Positions 3,097-23,187 of a DNA stretch of 23,187 nt are shown here, piece by piece (the stretch's first letter is position 1; each line of letters opens with the position of its first letter). The notes beneath the pieces were generated by a model. It saw only the letters and a list, made by a program, of their open reading frames with translations. It searched no databases and had not been told where the DNA came from. Source of the DNA: a virus. The DNA lies in the IMG/VR virus record IMGVR_UViG_3300008116_001302, positions 1 to 23,187 of that record. One strand, given 5' to 3'. The translations under genes were made by a program, and so were the position numbers.

Positions 3097-4869
3097 ATGT
3101 TCAAAATAAAATACCTCACAGTTAAAAACTTTATGAGCGTGGGCAATAGCACCCAGGCTGTGAACTTTGACCGCAAGGATCTAACACTTGTCTTGGGTGA
3201 AAATATTGACTTAGGTGGTGATGATACTGGTGCACGTAATGGCACAGGTAAGACCACTATCATTAATGCCCTAAGCTATGCCCTGTATGGACAGGCCTTG
3301 ACTAACATACGTAAAGATAATTTAGTTAACAAGACCAATCAAAAAGCTATGCTAGTCACTATTGACTTTGAGGTTAATGGGGTTGACTATAAGATTGAGC
3401 GTGGACGTAAACCTAATGTATTAAAATTCTACATAGGTGATCAAGAACAAGAAGCCAAAGACGATAACAGCCAAGGTGACAGCCGTGAAACGCAACAGGA
3501 AATTGAACGCCTGCTGGGTATGAGCCACGACATGTTCAAACACATCGTGGCATTGAATACCTATACTGAACCTTTTCTTGCACTGAAACCCAATGATCAA
3601 CGTACTATCATTGAACAACTGTTAGGTATTACCTTATTAAGTGAGAAAGCAGAAGCACTTAAAGAGCAGAGTAAGGCTACAAAGGACGCCATTCAACAGG
3701 AAGAGTTCAAGATCAAAGCAGTGCAAGATGCTAATAAAAAAATTGAAGAACAAGTCGAAAGCCTACAACGTCGTCAAATGCTTTGGTTGACCAAACACAA
3801 AGATGATGTAGCTAAATTACAGTCAGCATTAGATGAATTGCTTAAACTAGACATTGATGCTGAGATCGCCGCTCACAAAGAATTGTCAGCCTACGATCAA
3901 AAGCGCAGAGATATCGCAGACTTAAACAAAGCTATAGCACGTGCTGAGCAAGATCAAAGTAGAGAAGAAAAGACTATCACAAAATTAAAAGAAGAGATAG
4001 AAGATCTCAAAGCGCACAAGTGTTATGCTTGTGGACAGGATCTACATGACGAAAAACATGAAGAAGTCCTAGCTGGTAAAGAAACAGCTCTACAAGAAGC
4101 TGCACAACAATATCTAACTACCAATGGGCAATGGATAGAACTAACAGGTGCACTGAAAGAAATTGGCGAGCTGGATGTCCAACCAAAAGTCTATTATGAC
4201 AAAGAAGAAGATGCTATCCATCATCGTAGTTCATTAGCCAGTTTACAAACGCAGATCGAAACTAAATCTGTAGAAGAAGATCCTTATAAGGAACAGATTG
4301 AAGAAATGCGTCAGACAGCTTTAGCTGAATTTGACTACAGTGTTATGAATGAACTTGTTCGCGTCAAAGAACATCAAGAGTTCTTATACAAACTATTAAC
4401 CAACAAAGACAGTTACATACGTAAACGTATCATCGATCAAAACTTGAGCTACTTGAACGCTCGACTAAGCCAATATCTTGACCGTATTGGCTTACCCCAT
4501 ACTGTGGTGTTTATGAATGACCTCAGCGTCAACATCACTGAACTAGGCCGTGAACTAGACTTTGACAACTTGTCTCGTGGTGAGCGTAATAGACTTATAC
4601 TTTCACTGTCATGGGCATTCCGTGATGTGTGGGAAAGCCTGTATCAACCAATCAACTTATTGTTTATTGATGAATTGATTGATTCGGGCATGGATGCGTC
4701 AGGCGTAGAGAACGCTATGGCTATCCTTAAGAAGATGAGCCGTGATGCGCACAAATCAATTTGGCTCGTTTCTCATAGAGATGAACTGGGTGGTCGTGTA
4801 AATAATGTTTTAACCGTTGTTAAAGAAAACGGCTTTACTAGCTATAATACCGATGTTGAAATTAGCTGA
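3097..4869 (+). CDS. 46: gp46-like recombination endonuclease subunit (SbcC/Rad50 family)
   Basis: This 590-aa SMC-like ATPase has Walker A GARNGTGKTT at residues 45-54, long coiled coils either side of a zinc-hook CYAC (C309, C312), the ABC signature LSRGE at 492-496, Walker B LLFIDEL at 521-527, a D-loop (SGMD) and the switch histidine H560 (LVSHRDE). With gp47 it forms the phage Mre11-Rad50-type complex that resects DNA ends for recombination-dependent replication and host DNA breakdown. Length is close to T4 gp46 (560 aa). The start lies one base after the methyltransferase stop. The 3' end overlaps the radical SAM gene. Confidence 0.95.
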   Translation: MFKIKYLTVKNFMSVGNSTQAVNFDRKDLTLVLGENIDLGGDDTGARNGTGKTTIINALSYALYGQALTNIRKDNLVNKTNQKAMLVTIDFEVNGVDYKIERGRKPNVLKFYIGDQEQEAKDDNSQGDSRETQQEIERLLGMSHDMFKHIVALNTYTEPFLALKPNDQRTIIEQLLGITLLSEKAEALKEQSKATKDAIQQEEFKIKAVQDANKKIEEQVESLQRRQMLWLTKHKDDVAKLQSALDELLKLDIDAEIAAHKELSAYDQKRRDIADLNKAIARAEQDQSREEKTITKLKEEIEDLKAHKCYACGQDLHDEKHEEVLAGKETALQEAAQQYLTTNGQWIELTGALKEIGELDVQPKVYYDKEEDAIHHRSSLASLQTQIETKSVEEDPYKEQIEEMRQTALAEFDYSVMNELVRVKEHQEFLYKLLTNKDSYIRKRIIDQNLSYLNARLSQYLDRIGLPHTVVFMNDLSVNITELGRELDFDNLSRGERNRLILSLSWAFRDVWESLYQPINLLFIDELIDSGMDASGVENAMAILKKMSRDAHKSIWLVSHRDELGGRVNNVLTVVKENGFTSYNTDVEIS

Positions 4870-5755
4870 TCAAAATGTTCGTACACTACATATCGAACCC
4901 ACAGATGCCTGTAATGCGGCTTGTCCTCAGTGTTCTAGGGAAACTGATTTGACTTTCGATAAAACTAATCTGCACCATTTAACAGTAGAGCAGATAAAAA
5001 ATGTAGTTGATGAAGTTACTATCCGTGGTTTAGATAAGATGTACATGTGTGGGGATTATGGTGATCCTGCAGCTGGCAAACATACCTTGGACATATATCG
5101 ATATTTTAGATCTATTAATCCCACAATAATCCTAGGTATGAATACCAATGGTGGATTACGTAACAATGATTGGTGGAAAGAATTGGCAGAGATTATGTAT
5201 CAGCCCAAACAATATCCACAGGAATATGTAATATTCAGTATCGACGGATTATCTGACACTAACCACATCTATAGAATAAATGTTGATTGGAATAAAGTCA
5301 TGTCCAATGTCCGGGCGTTTATATCTGCAGGCGGTCGGGCCCATTGGGAAATGTTAGTATTCGATTATAATGAGCACCAAGTTGATCAAGCAGAAAGACT
5401 AGCAAAAAATATGGGATTTAAATGGTTCAGAGCTAAAGTCAGCAAGAGATTCGATACCCGTCCGGTAGACTTTTTACGTCCCCCAAAAACTTGGCGTGAT
5501 CCAGTAGTAAGCAAAGGTAATATCCATTGTCAGGCGTTGGGCGAACAAAGTCTTTATATATCAAGCAAGGGTATAATTCATCCATGCTGTTGGTTAGGAC
5601 ATTTACCATCAGCTACACTAGAAAAGTTTTCTGATGTAAGAGATTCATGGGATACTAACAATCCAATTCAAATATGTGCTGATAATTGTACTAAAAATGA
5701 AATAGGAACTAGTTTTACTAATCAATGGCAAAGATCAATAGAATTTCAAGATTAA
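4853..5755 (+). CDS. Radical SAM protein with SPASM/twitch-like C-terminal cysteines
   Basis: From the ATG at 4853 the product is 300 aa. Near its N-terminus it has the radical SAM motif C20-x3-C24-x2-C27 (CNAACPQC), which ligates a 4Fe-4S cluster. The C-terminal third has further cysteines (CQALGEQ, HPCCWLGH, CADNCTKN), consistent with a twitch/SPASM auxiliary cluster domain. Such enzymes modify peptides, nucleotides or sugars; the substrate is unknown. An upstream in-frame ATG at 4817 would add 12 residues lying wholly inside gp46, so 4853 is preferred; even so the gene overlaps gp46 by 17 bases. It may act with the methyltransferase and 110-aa protein on the other side of gp46, since both enzymes use S-adenosylmethionine, but this is inference. 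Confidence 0.87.
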   Translation: MLKLADQNVRTLHIEPTDACNAACPQCSRETDLTFDKTNLHHLTVEQIKNVVDEVTIRGLDKMYMCGDYGDPAAGKHTLDIYRYFRSINPTIILGMNTNGGLRNNDWWKELAEIMYQPKQYPQEYVIFSIDGLSDTNHIYRINVDWNKVMSNVRAFISAGGRAHWEMLVFDYNEHQVDQAERLAKNMGFKWFRAKVSKRFDTRPVDFLRPPKTWRDPVVSKGNIHCQALGEQSLYISSKGIIHPCCWLGHLPSATLEKFSDVRDSWDTNNPIQICADNCTKNEIGTSFTNQWQRSIEFQD

Positions 5756-6027: not shown

Positions 6028-6219
6028 ATGGCAACAACACATGAACAAATCGTAGCAGCATATGAAGCATATCTAGCAGAAAATGAAAAATTTGAAGGCA
6101 AGGGCGTAGGTGCGGCAGGCACACGTGCTCGCGGCGCATTAGGTGATTTAGGCAAGTTGTCAAAAGCTCGTCGTGCTGAAATCCAAGAGAAGAAAAATGC
6201 TGCCAAGGCTGCAAAATAA
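6028..6219 (+). CDS. Small Lys/Ala-rich protein, histone H1-like composition
   Basis: A 63-aa protein starting MATTHEQIVAAYEAYLAENE, followed by a GTRARGALGDLGKLSKARRA segment and a Lys/Ala tail (KKNAAKAAK). The composition resembles small nucleoid-type proteins. Similar short proteins (IVAAYE...TRARxALGDLxKLxKARRAEIQEKK) are, as I recall, common in marine T4-like phages, but I know no proven role. AAGGA at 6016-6020 gives good ribosome-site spacing. It ends nine bases before the GIY-YIG gene. Confidence 0.8.
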   Translation: MATTHEQIVAAYEAYLAENEKFEGKGVGAAGTRARGALGDLGKLSKARRAEIQEKKNAAKAAK

Positions 6220-6227
6220 ATAACACT

Positions 6228-6662
6228 ATGTCATATGAATATCCTTGGCGTTATAATGGAAACATTTTTGATTCTGAGGATATTCTCGACAACTATGGCT
6301 TTATCTACAGAATAACTAATATCACAAATGGCTACGATTATGTAGGCCGAAAATACTTTACTACAGTCAAAAAGAGACCACCTCTAAAAGGCAAGAAAAA
6401 CAAGCGCAGGGAAACAGTTGAAACTGATTGGAAAGAATACTGGGGCAGTAGTCCTAGATTACAAGCAGACATTGACACACTAGGCAAGGATAAGTTCACA
6501 CGCGAAATCATACACTTGTGTAAGACACGTGGCGAAACTAATTACATGGAAGCCTATTACCAATTTACTGAAGGCGTGCTGTTGAGAGAAGACAACTACA
6601 ACGGCATCATACAGATCAAACTAGGTAAAAATTCCGTTAAAGACGTAAAATTTACAAAATAG
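6228..6662 (+). CDS. GIY-YIG endonuclease, SegE-like
   Basis: The 144-aa protein has GFIYRIT (24-30) and YVGRKYF (38-44) separated as in GIY-YIG nucleases, Arg41 after the YVG, Glu108 (YMEAYYQ) and Asn123/Asn125 (DNYNG). These are the expected catalytic Arg, metal-binding Glu and Asn. In T4 such free-standing seg genes encode homing endonucleases; related copies in marine phages lie between core genes. There is no separate DNA-binding domain, only a basic stretch (KGKKNKRR, 54-61). The gene follows the 6028 gene closely and is immediately followed by the structured non-coding region. It ends in a run of Lys-rich residues. Confidence 0.82.
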   Translation: MSYEYPWRYNGNIFDSEDILDNYGFIYRITNITNGYDYVGRKYFTTVKKRPPLKGKKNKRRETVETDWKEYWGSSPRLQADIDTLGKDKFTREIIHLCKTRGETNYMEAYYQFTEGVLLREDNYNGIIQIKLGKNSVKDVKFTK

Positions 6663-6937
6663 CCACTATCGCAGTTTAATACTGTGTCATGAGGAGATCC
6701 AGCTCGCGTTATGGCCGCTGGTGGAACGCTTAGACAAGACTAAGCACATGACGGCACGGCAATCGATTAGGTGTAAAAACCAAATGATCTGGGCTCCGAA
6801 ACAAACCGACCCAGGAGCAAAACTACAGTTGGCTAACTACGGCTGTATGAGCTACCGCCAGAAAAATCTAGAGTAGGGGGTACCGGCTGACCGCCTCCGT
6901 GTTAATGAAAACAATCTCTTTTAGTTAGTGTGCCTCC

Positions 6938-7008
6938 GCACTCGGATAATGTGCTTGGTTGCAATTTGCCTCGGATAGGTAAATTGTGACTTGCATCTGG
7001 ATAATGCA
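6938..7008 (+). repeat. Three consecutive hairpins with YYGGATA loops
   Basis: Stem 1 is GCAC 6938-6941 / GTGC 6951-6954 with loop beginning TCGGATA (6942-6948). Stem 2 is nine pairs, 6962-6970 / 6978-6986 (one G-T), with loop TCGGATA (6971-6977). Stem 3 is TGCAT 6992-6996 / ATGCA 7004-7008 with loop CTGGATA (6997-7003). Stem sequences differ while loops agree, which is the pattern expected for repeated presentation of a binding site. GGA in a hairpin loop is the core of CsrA/RsmA binding sites; binding here is inference. Stem 1 competes with an alternative hairpin AGTGTG/CGCACT (6927-6942). Confidence 0.6.
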
Positions 7009-7065
7009 GCAAAAGCATACAGTAGTTCAACTTAAATCTAATGTTTATAAGGTAGAAAAGAAAAG

Positions 7066-7106
7066 GCTTTAGAGCGCAAGCGATAAAGCAGATGTCGTAG
7101 ACATCT
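7066..7106 (+). other. GNRA-capped stem and adjacent 7-bp hairpin
   Basis: GCTTTA 7066-7071 pairs with TAAAGC 7084-7089; inside it a GA/GA internal loop (7072-7073 / 7082-7083), then GC/GC, capped by the tetraloop GCAA (7076-7079). Directly following is AGATGTC 7090-7096 / GACATCT 7100-7106 with loop GTA. Tandem G-A plus a GNRA loop is a classic stable RNA fold and fixes the plus strand as the RNA. Confidence 0.6.
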
Positions 7107-7121
7107 TAAAACGGAACCAAT

Positions 7122-7158
7122 AAAAAAGCGTGAATAAATGAATACTCACGCTTTGTTT
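7122..7158 (-). terminator. Bidirectional hairpin terminator between convergent units
   Basis: A nine-pair stem AAAGCGTGA 7125-7133 / TCACGCTTT 7146-7154 has a 12-base loop. Read on the minus strand the stem is followed by a run of six T (complement of A 7122-7127), a good intrinsic terminator for the gp26 unit. Read on the plus strand it is followed by TTTGTTT, a weaker terminator for the non-coding RNA. Confidence 0.75.
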
Positions 7159-16431: not shown

Positions 16432-16450
16432 TACTTGTTCGCCCTTAATT

Positions 16451-16487
16451 GGAGGGGTTTATGCAGTCCCCACTGCGTATAGCCTAG
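16451..16487 (+). promoter_or_regulatory. Structured leader with an 8-codon ORF (MQSPLRIA)
   Basis: GGAGGGG 16451-16457 precedes ATG 16461, which reads eight codons to TAG 16485-16487. GGGG 16454-16457 can pair with CCCC 16468-16471, hiding both ribosome site and start. The true gene has its own AAGGAG at 16501-16506. This could be a leader peptide or only a folded leader. Confidence 0.35.
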
Positions 16488-16513
16488 AACGCTAACTTAT
16501 AAGGAGAAAACAA

Positions 16514-17233
16514 ATGGGACGTCCTATTAAATCGGTTTATTTCGGTGCACCAAAAGGCACAGGTGTAGGTGGTGAAGGCGTAATCTACGCTAATGTTTGG
16601 GTCGCAGGTACAGGTTATTACACAGCTAACGTTGGTGTGACTTTTAGCGCACCACAAATCGCAGGTGGTACAACAGCAACAGGTACAGTTACACTAAACG
16701 GTAGTGGCAATGTAACAGCAATCCTTGTTACTAGCGCAGGTTCTGGTTATACATCAACACCTACAGCATCAATCACTGGCGCTAACGCTAGTCCAGCAAG
16801 TGCTAATGTAACACTATTTGGCGGTACTGTTACTGCTGACGCTATTTTTGCTAACGCATGGGTAGCAGGTGCAAGTATCGGTAAAACAGCAGATATCGTT
16901 ACTCAAAGAAGTTCACGTCGTTACAGAGTCACAAACGCTGATGGTACTAGTGTATGTCGTTTAGTCCCAACTGGATTAAATGGAGTTAACAGTCCAACAG
17001 TTGCAGCAGTTATTTCTGCAGGCGGTCCAGTAGCTGAAGGTCAAATGACTATTATCGCTACAGACAGCGCAGGCGGTAAGTATCTAGTTGGTAAACTTGA
17101 GTCACGCACAGCATTAGTGTTTCCAGCTGCCATTGGCGGTTCAGCAGGTACACAATTTGCTGCTAACAGCCATGTTCGTTGGAATATTGATTCTGCAGTT
17201 CTTAATACCAGCGTAGTAATCGACAATAGATAA
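16514..17233 (+). CDS. Virion structural protein following gp23
   Basis: A 239-aa, beta-rich, Gly/Ala/Thr-rich protein starting MGRPIKSVYFG, a beginning typical of small structural proteins placed after gp23 in marine T4-like phages as I recall. It has a GSGYTSTPTASITG module (about residues 75-95) and then SSRRYRVTNADGTSVCRLVP and a VRWNIDSAVLN end. The motif I(Y/F)AN(V/A)WVAG occurs twice, at residues 24-32 and 111-119, bracketing the GSGY module, as if this module was inserted with duplication. A head decoration or tail-associated role is plausible but cannot be decided. Own candidate promoter and terminator flank it, so it is probably made in high amount. Ribosome site AAGGAG. Confidence 0.8.
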   Translation: MGRPIKSVYFGAPKGTGVGGEGVIYANVWVAGTGYYTANVGVTFSAPQIAGGTTATGTVTLNGSGNVTAILVTSAGSGYTSTPTASITGANASPASANVTLFGGTVTADAIFANAWVAGASIGKTADIVTQRSSRRYRVTNADGTSVCRLVPTGLNGVNSPTVAAVISAGGPVAEGQMTIIATDSAGGKYLVGKLESRTALVFPAAIGGSAGTQFAANSHVRWNIDSAVLNTSVVIDNR

Positions 17234-20565: not shown

Positions 20566-23187
20566 ATGTCTAATTTAACCAGAATTAAGAATAACCAGAT
20601 CACAGACTCGACTATCTGGGCTAATGCTAAGATCGTTCCTGGATCTATCGTTGGGTCACTTTTCAGCAGTAACATAACAGTAACCAGTGACTTTGTTATC
20701 ACAGGTAACTTATATGTAGCTGGTGCAAGTACATACTTGACAGTTGCTAGTACTAACACGTTTGTCAATGACCCATTAATCGTATTAAACAACGCCTACT
20801 CAGCAGGTGCTATTTACGATATTGGTTTTATTTTTGAACGTGGTACTGATGACAATCAGGCATTCTACTGGGATGAAACATCAGACGAATTTAAATTAAT
20901 CGCCACATCTGAAGGCGGCAGCACATACGGTAATATCGGCACAGAAATATCCTACAGTAATTTCCGCTTAGGTAATTTATTCCTTAACAACTACTCTGCA
21001 ACACGTTCACTATTCGTGGGTGCTAGTGGTCTAGTAACCACAGATGCAGAATATACCTATGATGCTACAAACAATACATTAACAGTCGGACAATTCCTTA
21101 TCGTAGGTAACAGTGCTGTAACCATCCAAACAACAGGCACAGATCAAGATTTAAAACTCGCTCCGAGCGGTGCTGGTATAGTTGATTTTAATGGAACTAA
21201 TGCAACTAATCTAGCAGATCCAGTAAGTGGTTCTGATGCAGTAACATTAACCTATCTTAATAACCAACTAAGCAGTGCTGTTACAAATCTAATCGATGAT
21301 GATACAGAAGTTAGACTAATTGATGATGGTGTGAACGCAGGACAGATTAATGCCAACGTCGATGCTACTAGCGCATTGGTAATTAAAAGTAATAGTTTAA
21401 GCATATTTGGTACAGGTTACACAGGTTCTAGCCCAAAAGTATTCATTGACAGCGCAACCAGCAACGTTGCGATATCTAGCACGCTTTGGGTCAGTGATGT
21501 AGTAACACTAAATTCAACAGTCCCTGCATCCAGCTATACAACTGGTGCAGTAAAAGTTTCAGGCGGTGTTGGTATTGGCGGTAATTTATATGTTGGCGCA
21601 GGTATACAAGACACAATTATTGGTAACGTGACACCAAACGCAGGTTTCTTTACTAACTTAAATGCTACAGGAAATCTACAAGTTGCTACAGTTAATGCTA
21701 GCTTCTTATCAGCAAGTACAGCAGTAGTTGGTAATATCGCCGCAGTTACAATTGGTAACACAGGTGCAGTCGTTCAAGGGTTAACAGCACAATTTAGTGG
21801 TAATGTCATTGGTGGCCTAGCTCAATTTGCAGCTCTAAATGCCACACCAATTGGCAACGCCGCAGCCAGCACCGGCGCATTTACAACACTAACAGCTTCT
21901 AGTGTAAACTCATCTGGTAACGTATTAGGTGCGGCAGCTACATTTAGTAGCTCACAAATCAACGGTAATGAAAACGTAACTGGTTATCTAAATGTAACTG
22001 GTAATATTTTAGGATCAGCAGGTACGTTAAGTACTTTAGATCTAAACAGCACAACAAATGCTACAGATGCGACAGGTACGACTGGTGCACTGCAAGTCTC
22101 AGGTGGAGTTAGTATCGCTAAAGATGTTTGGATTGGTGGTAATCTCTTTGTTTCTAACATCTTTGGTGTCACTGAACAACTAATCGCAGTTGCAGACCCG
22201 TTACTATATCTAACAGCATCTAATACCTTCCCATATACTTATGACATTGGTTTCTTTAGCCATTTTACTGGCGGCGCTGCAAATATTGAAATACACACAG
22301 GGTTTGTACGAGATGCTTCAGATGGCTATTGGAAATTATTCAGCAATGTTGACACTCAACCAACATCAGTTATAACCTTCAATGGCACAGAAGATTACGA
22401 TGGATTAAAACTTGGTAATTTACAATTAACTGCTACAGGAACTGCGATCTCAGCAGCGGGATTTATCAATACCACTGCTAACATTTCTGGTGCAGTGGTC
22501 AACGCAGGCGCACTAAATGTAACAGGCACAACAACGTTAGCCGCAATTAACTCAACTGGCTTAATCAACACCACAGGTAATGTAAGTGCAGCCACGGTAA
22601 TCGCAGGTCAATTCAATACGACTGGTAATTTAGTAGCTAGTGAAGTCAGTACTGGTACATTAAATGCTACTGGTTTAATTAACACCACAGGCAATATATC
22701 AGCGGCAGTAGTTAATGGTGGTGCGATTAACTCGACTGGTTTAATCAATACCACAGGTAATGTATCAGCAGCCACAGTAATAGCAGGTCAATTCAATACA
22801 ACTGGCAATTTAGTAGCTAGCCAAGTCAGCACTGGTACATTAAATGCTACTGGTTTAATTAACACCACAGGTAATGTAAGTGCTGCAACTGTGATAGCAG
22901 GTCAATTCAATACAACTGGTAATTTAGTAGCAAGTGAAGTTAGCACTGGTACATTAAATGCTACTGGTTTAATCAATACACTTGGCAACGTAAGTGCTGC
23001 AACTGTGATAGCAGGTCAATTTAATACGACTGGTAACCTGGTAGCTAGCCAAGTCAGCACTGGTACATTAAATGCTACTGGTTTAATCAATACACTTGGC
23101 AACATTTCAGGTGCTAGAATTAACGCAGACACACTTGCGGCTACTGGTACAATCTGGGCTAACGCTTCAACTGACACAACATCTTTA
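20566..23187 (+). CDS. Large tail fibre-like protein (3' end beyond window)
   Basis: The frame from ATG 20566 stays open to the last base, 874 codons so far. The N-terminus (MSNLTRIKNNQITDSTIWAN) leads to a module VITGNLYVAG, FVNDPLIVLNN, DIGFIFERG, FYWDETSDEF at about residues 45-125; a second copy lies at about 519-620 (VWIGGNLFVSN, VADPLLYLTAS, DIGFFSHF, VRDASDGYWKL). Each of the two SGGV motifs (TTGAVKVSGGVGIGGNLYVG, TTGALQVSGGVSIAKDVWIG) introduces a new segment. From residue about 664 it consists of 38-residue tandem repeats. Composition (Thr, Asn, Ala, Gly, Val; no Cys seen) and repeats fit a long trimeric beta-helical fibre. GCGGAG at 20548-20553 is a possible ribosome site 12 bases upstream. 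Confidence 0.82.
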   Translation, partial: MSNLTRIKNNQITDSTIWANAKIVPGSIVGSLFSSNITVTSDFVITGNLYVAGASTYLTVASTNTFVNDPLIVLNNAYSAGAIYDIGFIFERGTDDNQAFYWDETSDEFKLIATSEGGSTYGNIGTEISYSNFRLGNLFLNNYSATRSLFVGASGLVTTDAEYTYDATNNTLTVGQFLIVGNSAVTIQTTGTDQDLKLAPSGAGIVDFNGTNATNLADPVSGSDAVTLTYLNNQLSSAVTNLIDDDTEVRLIDDGVNAGQINANVDATSALVIKSNSLSIFGTGYTGSSPKVFIDSATSNVAISSTLWVSDVVTLNSTVPASSYTTGAVKVSGGVGIGGNLYVGAGIQDTIIGNVTPNAGFFTNLNATGNLQVATVNASFLSASTAVVGNIAAVTIGNTGAVVQGLTAQFSGNVIGGLAQFAALNATPIGNAAASTGAFTTLTASSVNSSGNVLGAAATFSSSQINGNENVTGYLNVTGNILGSAGTLSTLDLNSTTNATDATGTTGALQVSGGVSIAKDVWIGGNLFVSNIFGVTEQLIAVADPLLYLTASNTFPYTYDIGFFSHFTGGAANIEIHTGFVRDASDGYWKLFSNVDTQPTSVITFNGTEDYDGLKLGNLQLTATGTAISAAGFINTTANISGAVVNAGALNVTGTTTLAAINSTGLINTTGNVSAATVIAGQFNTTGNLVASEVSTGTLNATGLINTTGNISAAVVNGGAINSTGLINTTGNVSAATVIAGQFNTTGNLVASQVSTGTLNATGLINTTGNVSAATVIAGQFNTTGNLVASEVSTGTLNATGLINTLGNVSAATVIAGQFNTTGNLVASQVSTGTLNATGLINTLGNISGARINADTLAATGTIWANASTDTTSL
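22555..23076 (+). repeat. 114-bp tandem repeats inside the large fibre gene
   Basis: Four full 114-bp (38-codon) units begin at 22555, 22735, 22849 and 22963, with one shortened 66-bp unit at 22669-22734 and a decayed unit from 23077. Each unit encodes TGLINTxGNVSAATVIAGQF then NTTGNLVASxVSTGTLNA, where x at the second place alternates Glu, Gln, Glu, Gln. Near-identity at the DNA level suggests recent expansion by recombination. Confidence 0.93.

Follow-up and report, generated by a model that had tools for sequence, protein, structure and literature searches.

What fills the roughly 460 bases that follow a SegE-like GIY-YIG endonuclease gene, close to the baseplate gene gp26, in this phage, and would it act as RNA? 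The window, by which we mean the whole 23,187-nucleotide stretch of viral DNA analysed, is a T4-like phage fragment in which gp46/47-type genes are followed by a radical SAM gene, the SegE-like gene and the region in question (positions 6663–7121); beyond it, the minus strand carries two small ORFs and gp26 (T4_baseplate), then a long ORF and a T4-type portal gene. Among the genes of this block, a small Hc1 histone-like protein (6028–6219, plus strand) is conserved within the syntenic block, and the radical SAM protein (4817–5755, plus strand), part of the phage core block, has divergent or different versions in relatives. A preliminary description, made from the letters alone, had proposed that the region is free of ORFs, is comparatively rich in G+C and is likely under selection for an RNA. 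Downstream of the segE stop codon (6662) we found no convincing reading frame: a small ORF at 6721–6876 (plus strand) is intact in 2 of 41 relatives and another at 6902–7030 (minus strand) in 5 of 41, and no protein-coding frame is conserved among the 41. The G+C fraction is 0.452, against 0.397 for the window.

Conservation and covariation both favour the proposed selection for an RNA. The sequence is kept at the same place in related phages, and single-sequence folding of the plus strand is moderately unusual relative to dinucleotide shuffles (z −2.65), with the minus strand folding no better than its shuffles (z −0.69). For 41 near relatives, a structure of 17 helices and 90 pairs that was drawn from the window proved 91.1% paired (being fitted by eye to the sequences on which it was tested, it is somewhat favoured), and pairing dropped to 35–44% when partners were slid by 1–3 columns. 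Both sides had changed in 43 of these pairs, with 355 cells carrying such changes against 108 after shuffling. A set of 50 diverse cores gave a similarly heavy signal: 39 pairs, including two pseudoknots, were 87% paired versus 41–51% when slid, the covariation score was 0.502 versus 0.179 shuffled, and strong covariation fell in the two pseudoknots and four helices. As far as sequence comparison can tell, the independent compensatory changes are numerous enough to leave little room for doubt about the structure, and we regard it as near certain that the ~440 bases at 6671–7106 on the plus strand are a real, intricately folded noncoding RNA.

Its layout comprises a 5′ domain, made up of P1 and a three-way junction (P2–P4), a core with two pseudoknots, and a 3′ hairpin domain. 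The core runs P5, P6, P7, then CCG-a ... P8-TA-b ... a′-CCG-b′ (PK-A), together with the P9 hairpin; the 3′ domain holds P10, P11, a GNRA-capped stem with tandem G-A pairs and a 7-bp hairpin. The features, in order, are as follows.

6228–6662, plus strand: SegE-like GIY-YIG endonuclease gene (PF19835, E 1.5e-36), the upstream neighbour, outside the RNA
6671–7106, plus strand: structured noncoding RNA, conserved extent in the alignment of 41 relatives
6671–6685, plus strand: P1 hairpin (6671–75/6681–85), 87.5% paired, innermost pair weak
6686–6752, plus strand: 5′ three-way junction, closed by P2 (6686–91/6747–52), with both-side changes in 5 of 6 P2 pairs
6699–6703/6717–21, plus strand: P3 in the 5′ junction, both-side changes in 5 of 5 pairs
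6728–33/6740–45, plus strand: P4 in the 5′ junction, both-side changes in 4 of 6 pairs
6770–6781, plus strand: P5, small hairpin (GGT/ACC), 96.7% paired in near relatives; in the diverse set it is weak (57%)
6789–6814, plus strand: P6 stem (6789–93/6810–14), holding the signature GGCTCTGTGAAAAAGATACAACC-type strand; 91.5% paired in 50 diverse cores, 4 of 5 pairs covarying
6825–6846, plus strand: P7 hairpin (6825–30/6841–46), whose loop carries PK-B; 90% paired, 6 of 6 pairs covarying in diverse cores
6833–6928, plus strand: PK-B pseudoknot, 7 bp, loop 6833–39 with 6922–28; 89.4% paired and 7 of 7 covarying in diverse cores, 100% paired in near relatives
6857–6891, plus strand: PK-A strand pair a/a′ (6857–61/6887–91), complementary 4-mers of many kinds among 88 unique sequences
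6870–6919, plus strand: P8 (6870–73/6916–19), in near-relative and diverse alignments; a TA spacer precedes PK-A b
6876–80/6894–98, plus strand: PK-A b/b′, invariant central G-U, crossing 6857–61/6887–91
6900–03/6910–13, plus strand: P9 hairpin, in near-relative and diverse alignments
6938–41/6951–54, plus strand: P10, weak, 75.5% paired
6962–70/6978–86, plus strand: P11 hairpin, 100% paired
7066–7089, plus strand: P13, stem with a GNRA cap and tandem G-A pairs; 40 sequences show six or more different complementary 5-mers
7090–7106, plus strand: P14, 7-bp hairpin AGATGTC/GACATCT, 97.2% paired and nearly invariant
7125–7154, strand not assigned: terminator-like hairpin between convergent units; 12 pairs scored on the minus strand, weak T tract in the plus direction

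The conserved strand that goes with P6 reads GGCTCTG..AAAAA..CAACC. The perfect 7-bp hairpin and the GNRA-capped stem singled out in the preliminary description are both present and conserved as P14 and P13, the latter in variants that include GCATT/AATGC, GCTTT/AAAGC, AACTT/AAGTT and GCGTT/AACGC. The H-type pseudoknot proposed there at 6790–6817 survives only in half: its CTGGG/CCCAG helix is supported, whereas the CTCC/GGAG helix, 68.9% paired versus 69.6% in shuffled columns, is at chance level and was rejected. The supported pseudoknots lie elsewhere, namely PK-A (6857–61/6887–91 crossing 6876–80/6894–98) and PK-B (6833–39/6922–28). PK-A a/a′ carries one C-A mismatch in the window itself, and a P12 pairing tried near 6993–7007 was 51.9% paired; neither P10 nor P12 is well supported. 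Mimicry of 16S rRNA by GGCTAACTAC was rejected because that loop covaries with 6922–28, and the idea that the 3′ end (...ACGGAACCA) is tRNA-like or part of a tmRNA was set aside, as neither ARAGORN nor Rfam supported it and the segment is not conserved. The hairpin at 7125–7154 is also visible in near relatives; no promoter for the window's own RNA stands out.

Related phages carry the RNA widely. A search with gp26 returned 30 viral contigs, about 20 of them with the RNA at the same place, and scans with the core pattern matched at least 119, 17 and at least 120 contigs; the core is present in more than 230 IMG/VR contigs of up to 328 kb. R1, a covariance model built from diverse environmental cores only, found a single copy per record in 17 environmental records (62–328 kb), all 17 with a T4-type gp26 (T4_baseplate) match close to the RNA and 16 of the 17 with a Portal_T4 match over the cut-off nearby. 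The model also matched relatives whose gp26 is only 38% identical; the window scores 135 bits, as a member of the R1 training set. In a set of 86 representatives, 76 of 84 upstream neighbours are co-directional and 55 of 82 downstream neighbours are opposed. The upstream gene varies by subgroup (SegE, PDDEXK_15, nucleoside phosphorylase and others), and since other phages have PDDEXK_15 or another gene there, the association with the GIY-YIG gene holds only locally; in some relatives segE and the RNA are separated by other genes or by long gaps. No conserved co-directional downstream gene was found that a riboswitch or 5′ leader could serve, the window's next genes lying on the minus strand, and by its genomic position the RNA does not fit the leader of one conserved gene.

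Comparison with known families placed the core outside all of them. When the window and some 40 related loci were run through cmscan, no Rfam 15 family, GOLLD, ROOL and OLE included, matched the RNA core, and the region itself, even with permissive filters, gave chance matches only; consistent with the earlier report of no resemblance to tmRNA, RNase P RNA or 6S RNA, no Rfam family matches it, and neither ARAGORN nor Rfam detects a tmRNA or tRNA there. Part of some members is already catalogued: Polynucleobacter-1 (RF01718) matches the 5′ domain of one relative at 38.7 bits, over its gathering threshold of 37 (L162:2580–2729), and a second at the same position below threshold (L281:2514–2655, 22.3 bits), both directly 5′ of the core. 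The model has no match in the window or nearly all other members, and its 141 nucleotides include neither the PK-A/PK-B core nor the 3′ domain. Polynucleobacter-1 was put forward in 2010 as an RNA of Burkholderiales and fresh water with a probable cis-regulatory role (PMC2864571); given these two 5′-domain matches, it may be a fragment of this larger phage RNA.

Closest in character, though not in sequence, are GOLLD, ROOL and an RNA of phage ICP1. Like the RNA described here, GOLLD (RF01998) is large, pseudoknotted and phage-encoded; it was first seen in lake metagenomes and forms an oligomeric cage (PMC12286853), but its family matched no member that we tested, and the RNA here is shorter. 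ROOL is likewise a large, ornate phage RNA that forms a cage (PMC12286853), but again there is no Rfam match, and its sequence and hosts are different. Both GOLLD and ROOL are frequently found near tRNA genes, whereas the RNA here is not and sits in no tRNA island: ARAGORN found no tRNA gene in the window and, among 43 related loci, just one, which lies several kilobases away (L157). The ICP1 RNA, between gp139 and gp140, is also without ORFs, about 800 nt long and the most abundant ICP1 transcript (PMC7567579), and was rejected as a homologue in the absence of an R1 match. Our search of the open-access literature, with subscription papers outside its scope, found no description of this RNA class. 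The core belongs to no curated RNA family and most likely represents a previously undescribed class, new alongside GOLLD and ROOL.

Environmental queries found no related match in the phage nucleotide database, and cultured homologues surfaced only through gp26/portal synteny. Among cultured phages, it is jumbo phages that have the closest gp26 proteins, and in GAP32, 121Q, CBB, XbC2, Munch and Kaldavass the gp26-side slot, unannotated except for small hypothetical ORFs in Kaldavass, holds conserved RNA-like sequence in which the PK-A/P8/PK-B order can be discerned by eye. A shared descriptor, written post hoc after GAP32 had been seen, recovered 117 of 147 unique environmental cores with one mismatch allowed in a, with 0 off-targets in 4.68 Mb; in its strict form it matched the slot in all six jumbo phages (five with PK-B), nowhere else in the fetched regions and in 0 of 1300 shuffles. 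Because the descriptor was post hoc, an independent reciprocal-model test was made. R1, in which no jumbo core was used, matched jumbo cores down to E 1.5e-5, and most matches of R2, a covariance model from jumbo sequences only, fell on environmental cores (best E 0.0012; window 22.2 bits, E 0.049). Both sets share an invariant G-U at the centre of PK-A b. By these comparisons, the environmental RNAs and those of RaK2-like jumbo phages (GAP32, 121Q, CBB, Munch, XbC2) qualify as homologues.

Most RaK2-like phages have 4–5 dispersed copies (161 places in 40 records). In GAP32 (NC_019401.1) five clusters of matches on a single strand lie at ~35, 99, 178, 262 and 341 kb, and 121Q (KM507819.1) has copies at ~90.3, 192.8, 247.5 and 326.6 kb that adjoin unrelated genes. 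The five copies of GAP32 and of XbC2 are spaced fairly regularly, ~64–84 kb apart on one strand, and 121Q, Munch and Kaldavass likewise have all their detected copies on a single strand; the copy beside gp26 keeps it though its neighbours run opposite. Outside Kaldavass, most scanned copies have the core, with different compensating helices. The slot copies have a TATAAT-type site ~350–380 nt upstream of the core and a T-run ~106 nt downstream, taken as the terminator, a span of ~455–490 nt. Promoter-like sites in 121Q occur at chance level (6 found, 5.6 expected), and it is the conserved position that marks this one as a putative promoter.

The exact core pattern was absent from GTDB genomes, and a shorter signature occurred in Terasakiella alone, where the cultured bacterium T. 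pusilla DSM 6293 has two divergent copies (L265:2805–2916; L278 near 4400) adjoining integrase- and resolvase-like genes. Run on a class-wide sample of 385 genomes, R1 matched Terasakiella and one weak case, a second alphaproteobacterial genome (E 5.8e-4 per genome), near chance expectation; the gene beside the weak match looks phage-derived. PA5oct-like phages hold an ORF-poor region in the same gp26 slot with a related strand, CTCTGGTAGAAAAAGATCAAC (Callisto, L287:14640–15620, fold z −6.40; PA5oct, NC_071039.1:75845–76825, annotated there with tiny hypothetical ORFs). It occurs in three places per genome, the slot and two further partial copies, and is likely homologous, although its R1 match of 5.2 bits (E 0.4) is not significant. 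Sinorhizobium phage Phosso has an unannotated gap of ~1 kb near gp26 (L290:8230–9243) that appears rich in inverted repeats and has no R1 match.

We favour, with moderate confidence, a stand-alone RNA of ~440 nt, belonging to an undescribed T4-like/jumbo-phage class, that is stable and acts in trans. It would be transcribed during infection, probably from its own promoter in the jumbo phages and possibly by read-through from segE in the window, and would end near the terminator hairpin. As a stable folded molecule acting in trans, it would most plausibly scaffold or bind a protein complex or ribosomes, or assemble with itself as GOLLD and ROOL do. The trans-acting role is suggested by exclusion and analogy, because cis roles fit poorly and precedents exist; no partner is tied to the RNA.

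A cis-acting element, whether a structured segE 3′ UTR or a complex attenuator or terminator that stabilises or regulates neighbouring genes, seems unlikely, although the window's RNA begins no more than 10 bases after the segE stop and runs up to a terminator-like hairpin, the downstream neighbour is co-directional in some phages (27 of 82), and Polynucleobacter-1, which matches one relative's 5′ domain, was judged probably cis-regulatory (PMC2864571). Against this, the upstream gene changes among SegE, PDDEXK_15 and nucleoside phosphorylase, other genes or long gaps intervene between segE and the RNA in some relatives, the 121Q paralogues adjoin unrelated genes, and two interlocked pseudoknots conserved this widely exceed what termination needs. 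The nearby endonucleases raise the thought that the RNA belongs to a mobile element, or to a nuclease system that is RNA-guided or intron-related, and spread with them: GIY-YIG, PDDEXK_15 and endonuclease VII genes are among its neighbours, two 121Q copies have HNH genes less than 2 kb away, the Terasakiella copies adjoin integrase-like genes, and jumbo phages carry several dispersed copies. We give this little credence, as no single nuclease family goes with the RNA, no Rfam intron family matches, no split gene flanks it, and environmental phages have one copy in a fixed syntenic place.

In T4, a transcript primes replication at an R-loop origin. A comparable part in DNA metabolism, as a replication primer or a mark for packaging, would explain the several copies in jumbo genomes and sits well with their one-strand arrangement, with the regular spacing in GAP32 and XbC2, and with the slot between gp46/47 recombination genes and structural genes. 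We nonetheless consider it very improbable: the conserved signal is RNA structure, needless for a primer, and copies in orthologous positions are not independent, which makes strand bias weak evidence. For the jumbo copies, replication or packaging remains an attractive reading that is weakly supported. Finally, that the region is a spacer folded by chance, as the moderate single-sequence score (z −2.65) might suggest, has a vanishingly small likelihood: covariation refutes it, and wide conservation and the reciprocal model matches also speak against it.

A wider picture can be offered, tentatively and as something we think possible rather than probable. One RNA class would be a standing component of the T4-like/jumbo supergroup, in one copy in phages of 100–330 kb and in 4–5 strand-biased copies in RaK2-like giants, and would serve large myoviruses in a way that has no counterpart among known phage RNAs; it might, for instance, organise replication or packaging, or build an RNA particle. 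RNAs of this kind, large, structured and with conserved pseudoknots, are rare, and GOLLD, ROOL and OLE, on study, formed unexpected RNA complexes. This one has been overlooked, or hidden under small hypothetical ORFs, in published phage genomes. As cultured phages carry it, some growing on E. coli K-12, its expression, structure and importance are directly testable, and the covariance models provide a marker for a large group of uncultivated T4-like phages.

Elsewhere in the window, the Rfam freshwater-2 RNA (RF02980) matches positions 16441–16516 (plus strand, 66 bits). The match lies past the presumed major capsid gene and directly upstream of an ORF at 16514. The last ORF (22300–23187, plus strand) contains a repeated motif, INTTGNVSAATVIAGQFNTTGNLVAS, and probably encodes a tail-fibre-like repeat protein.
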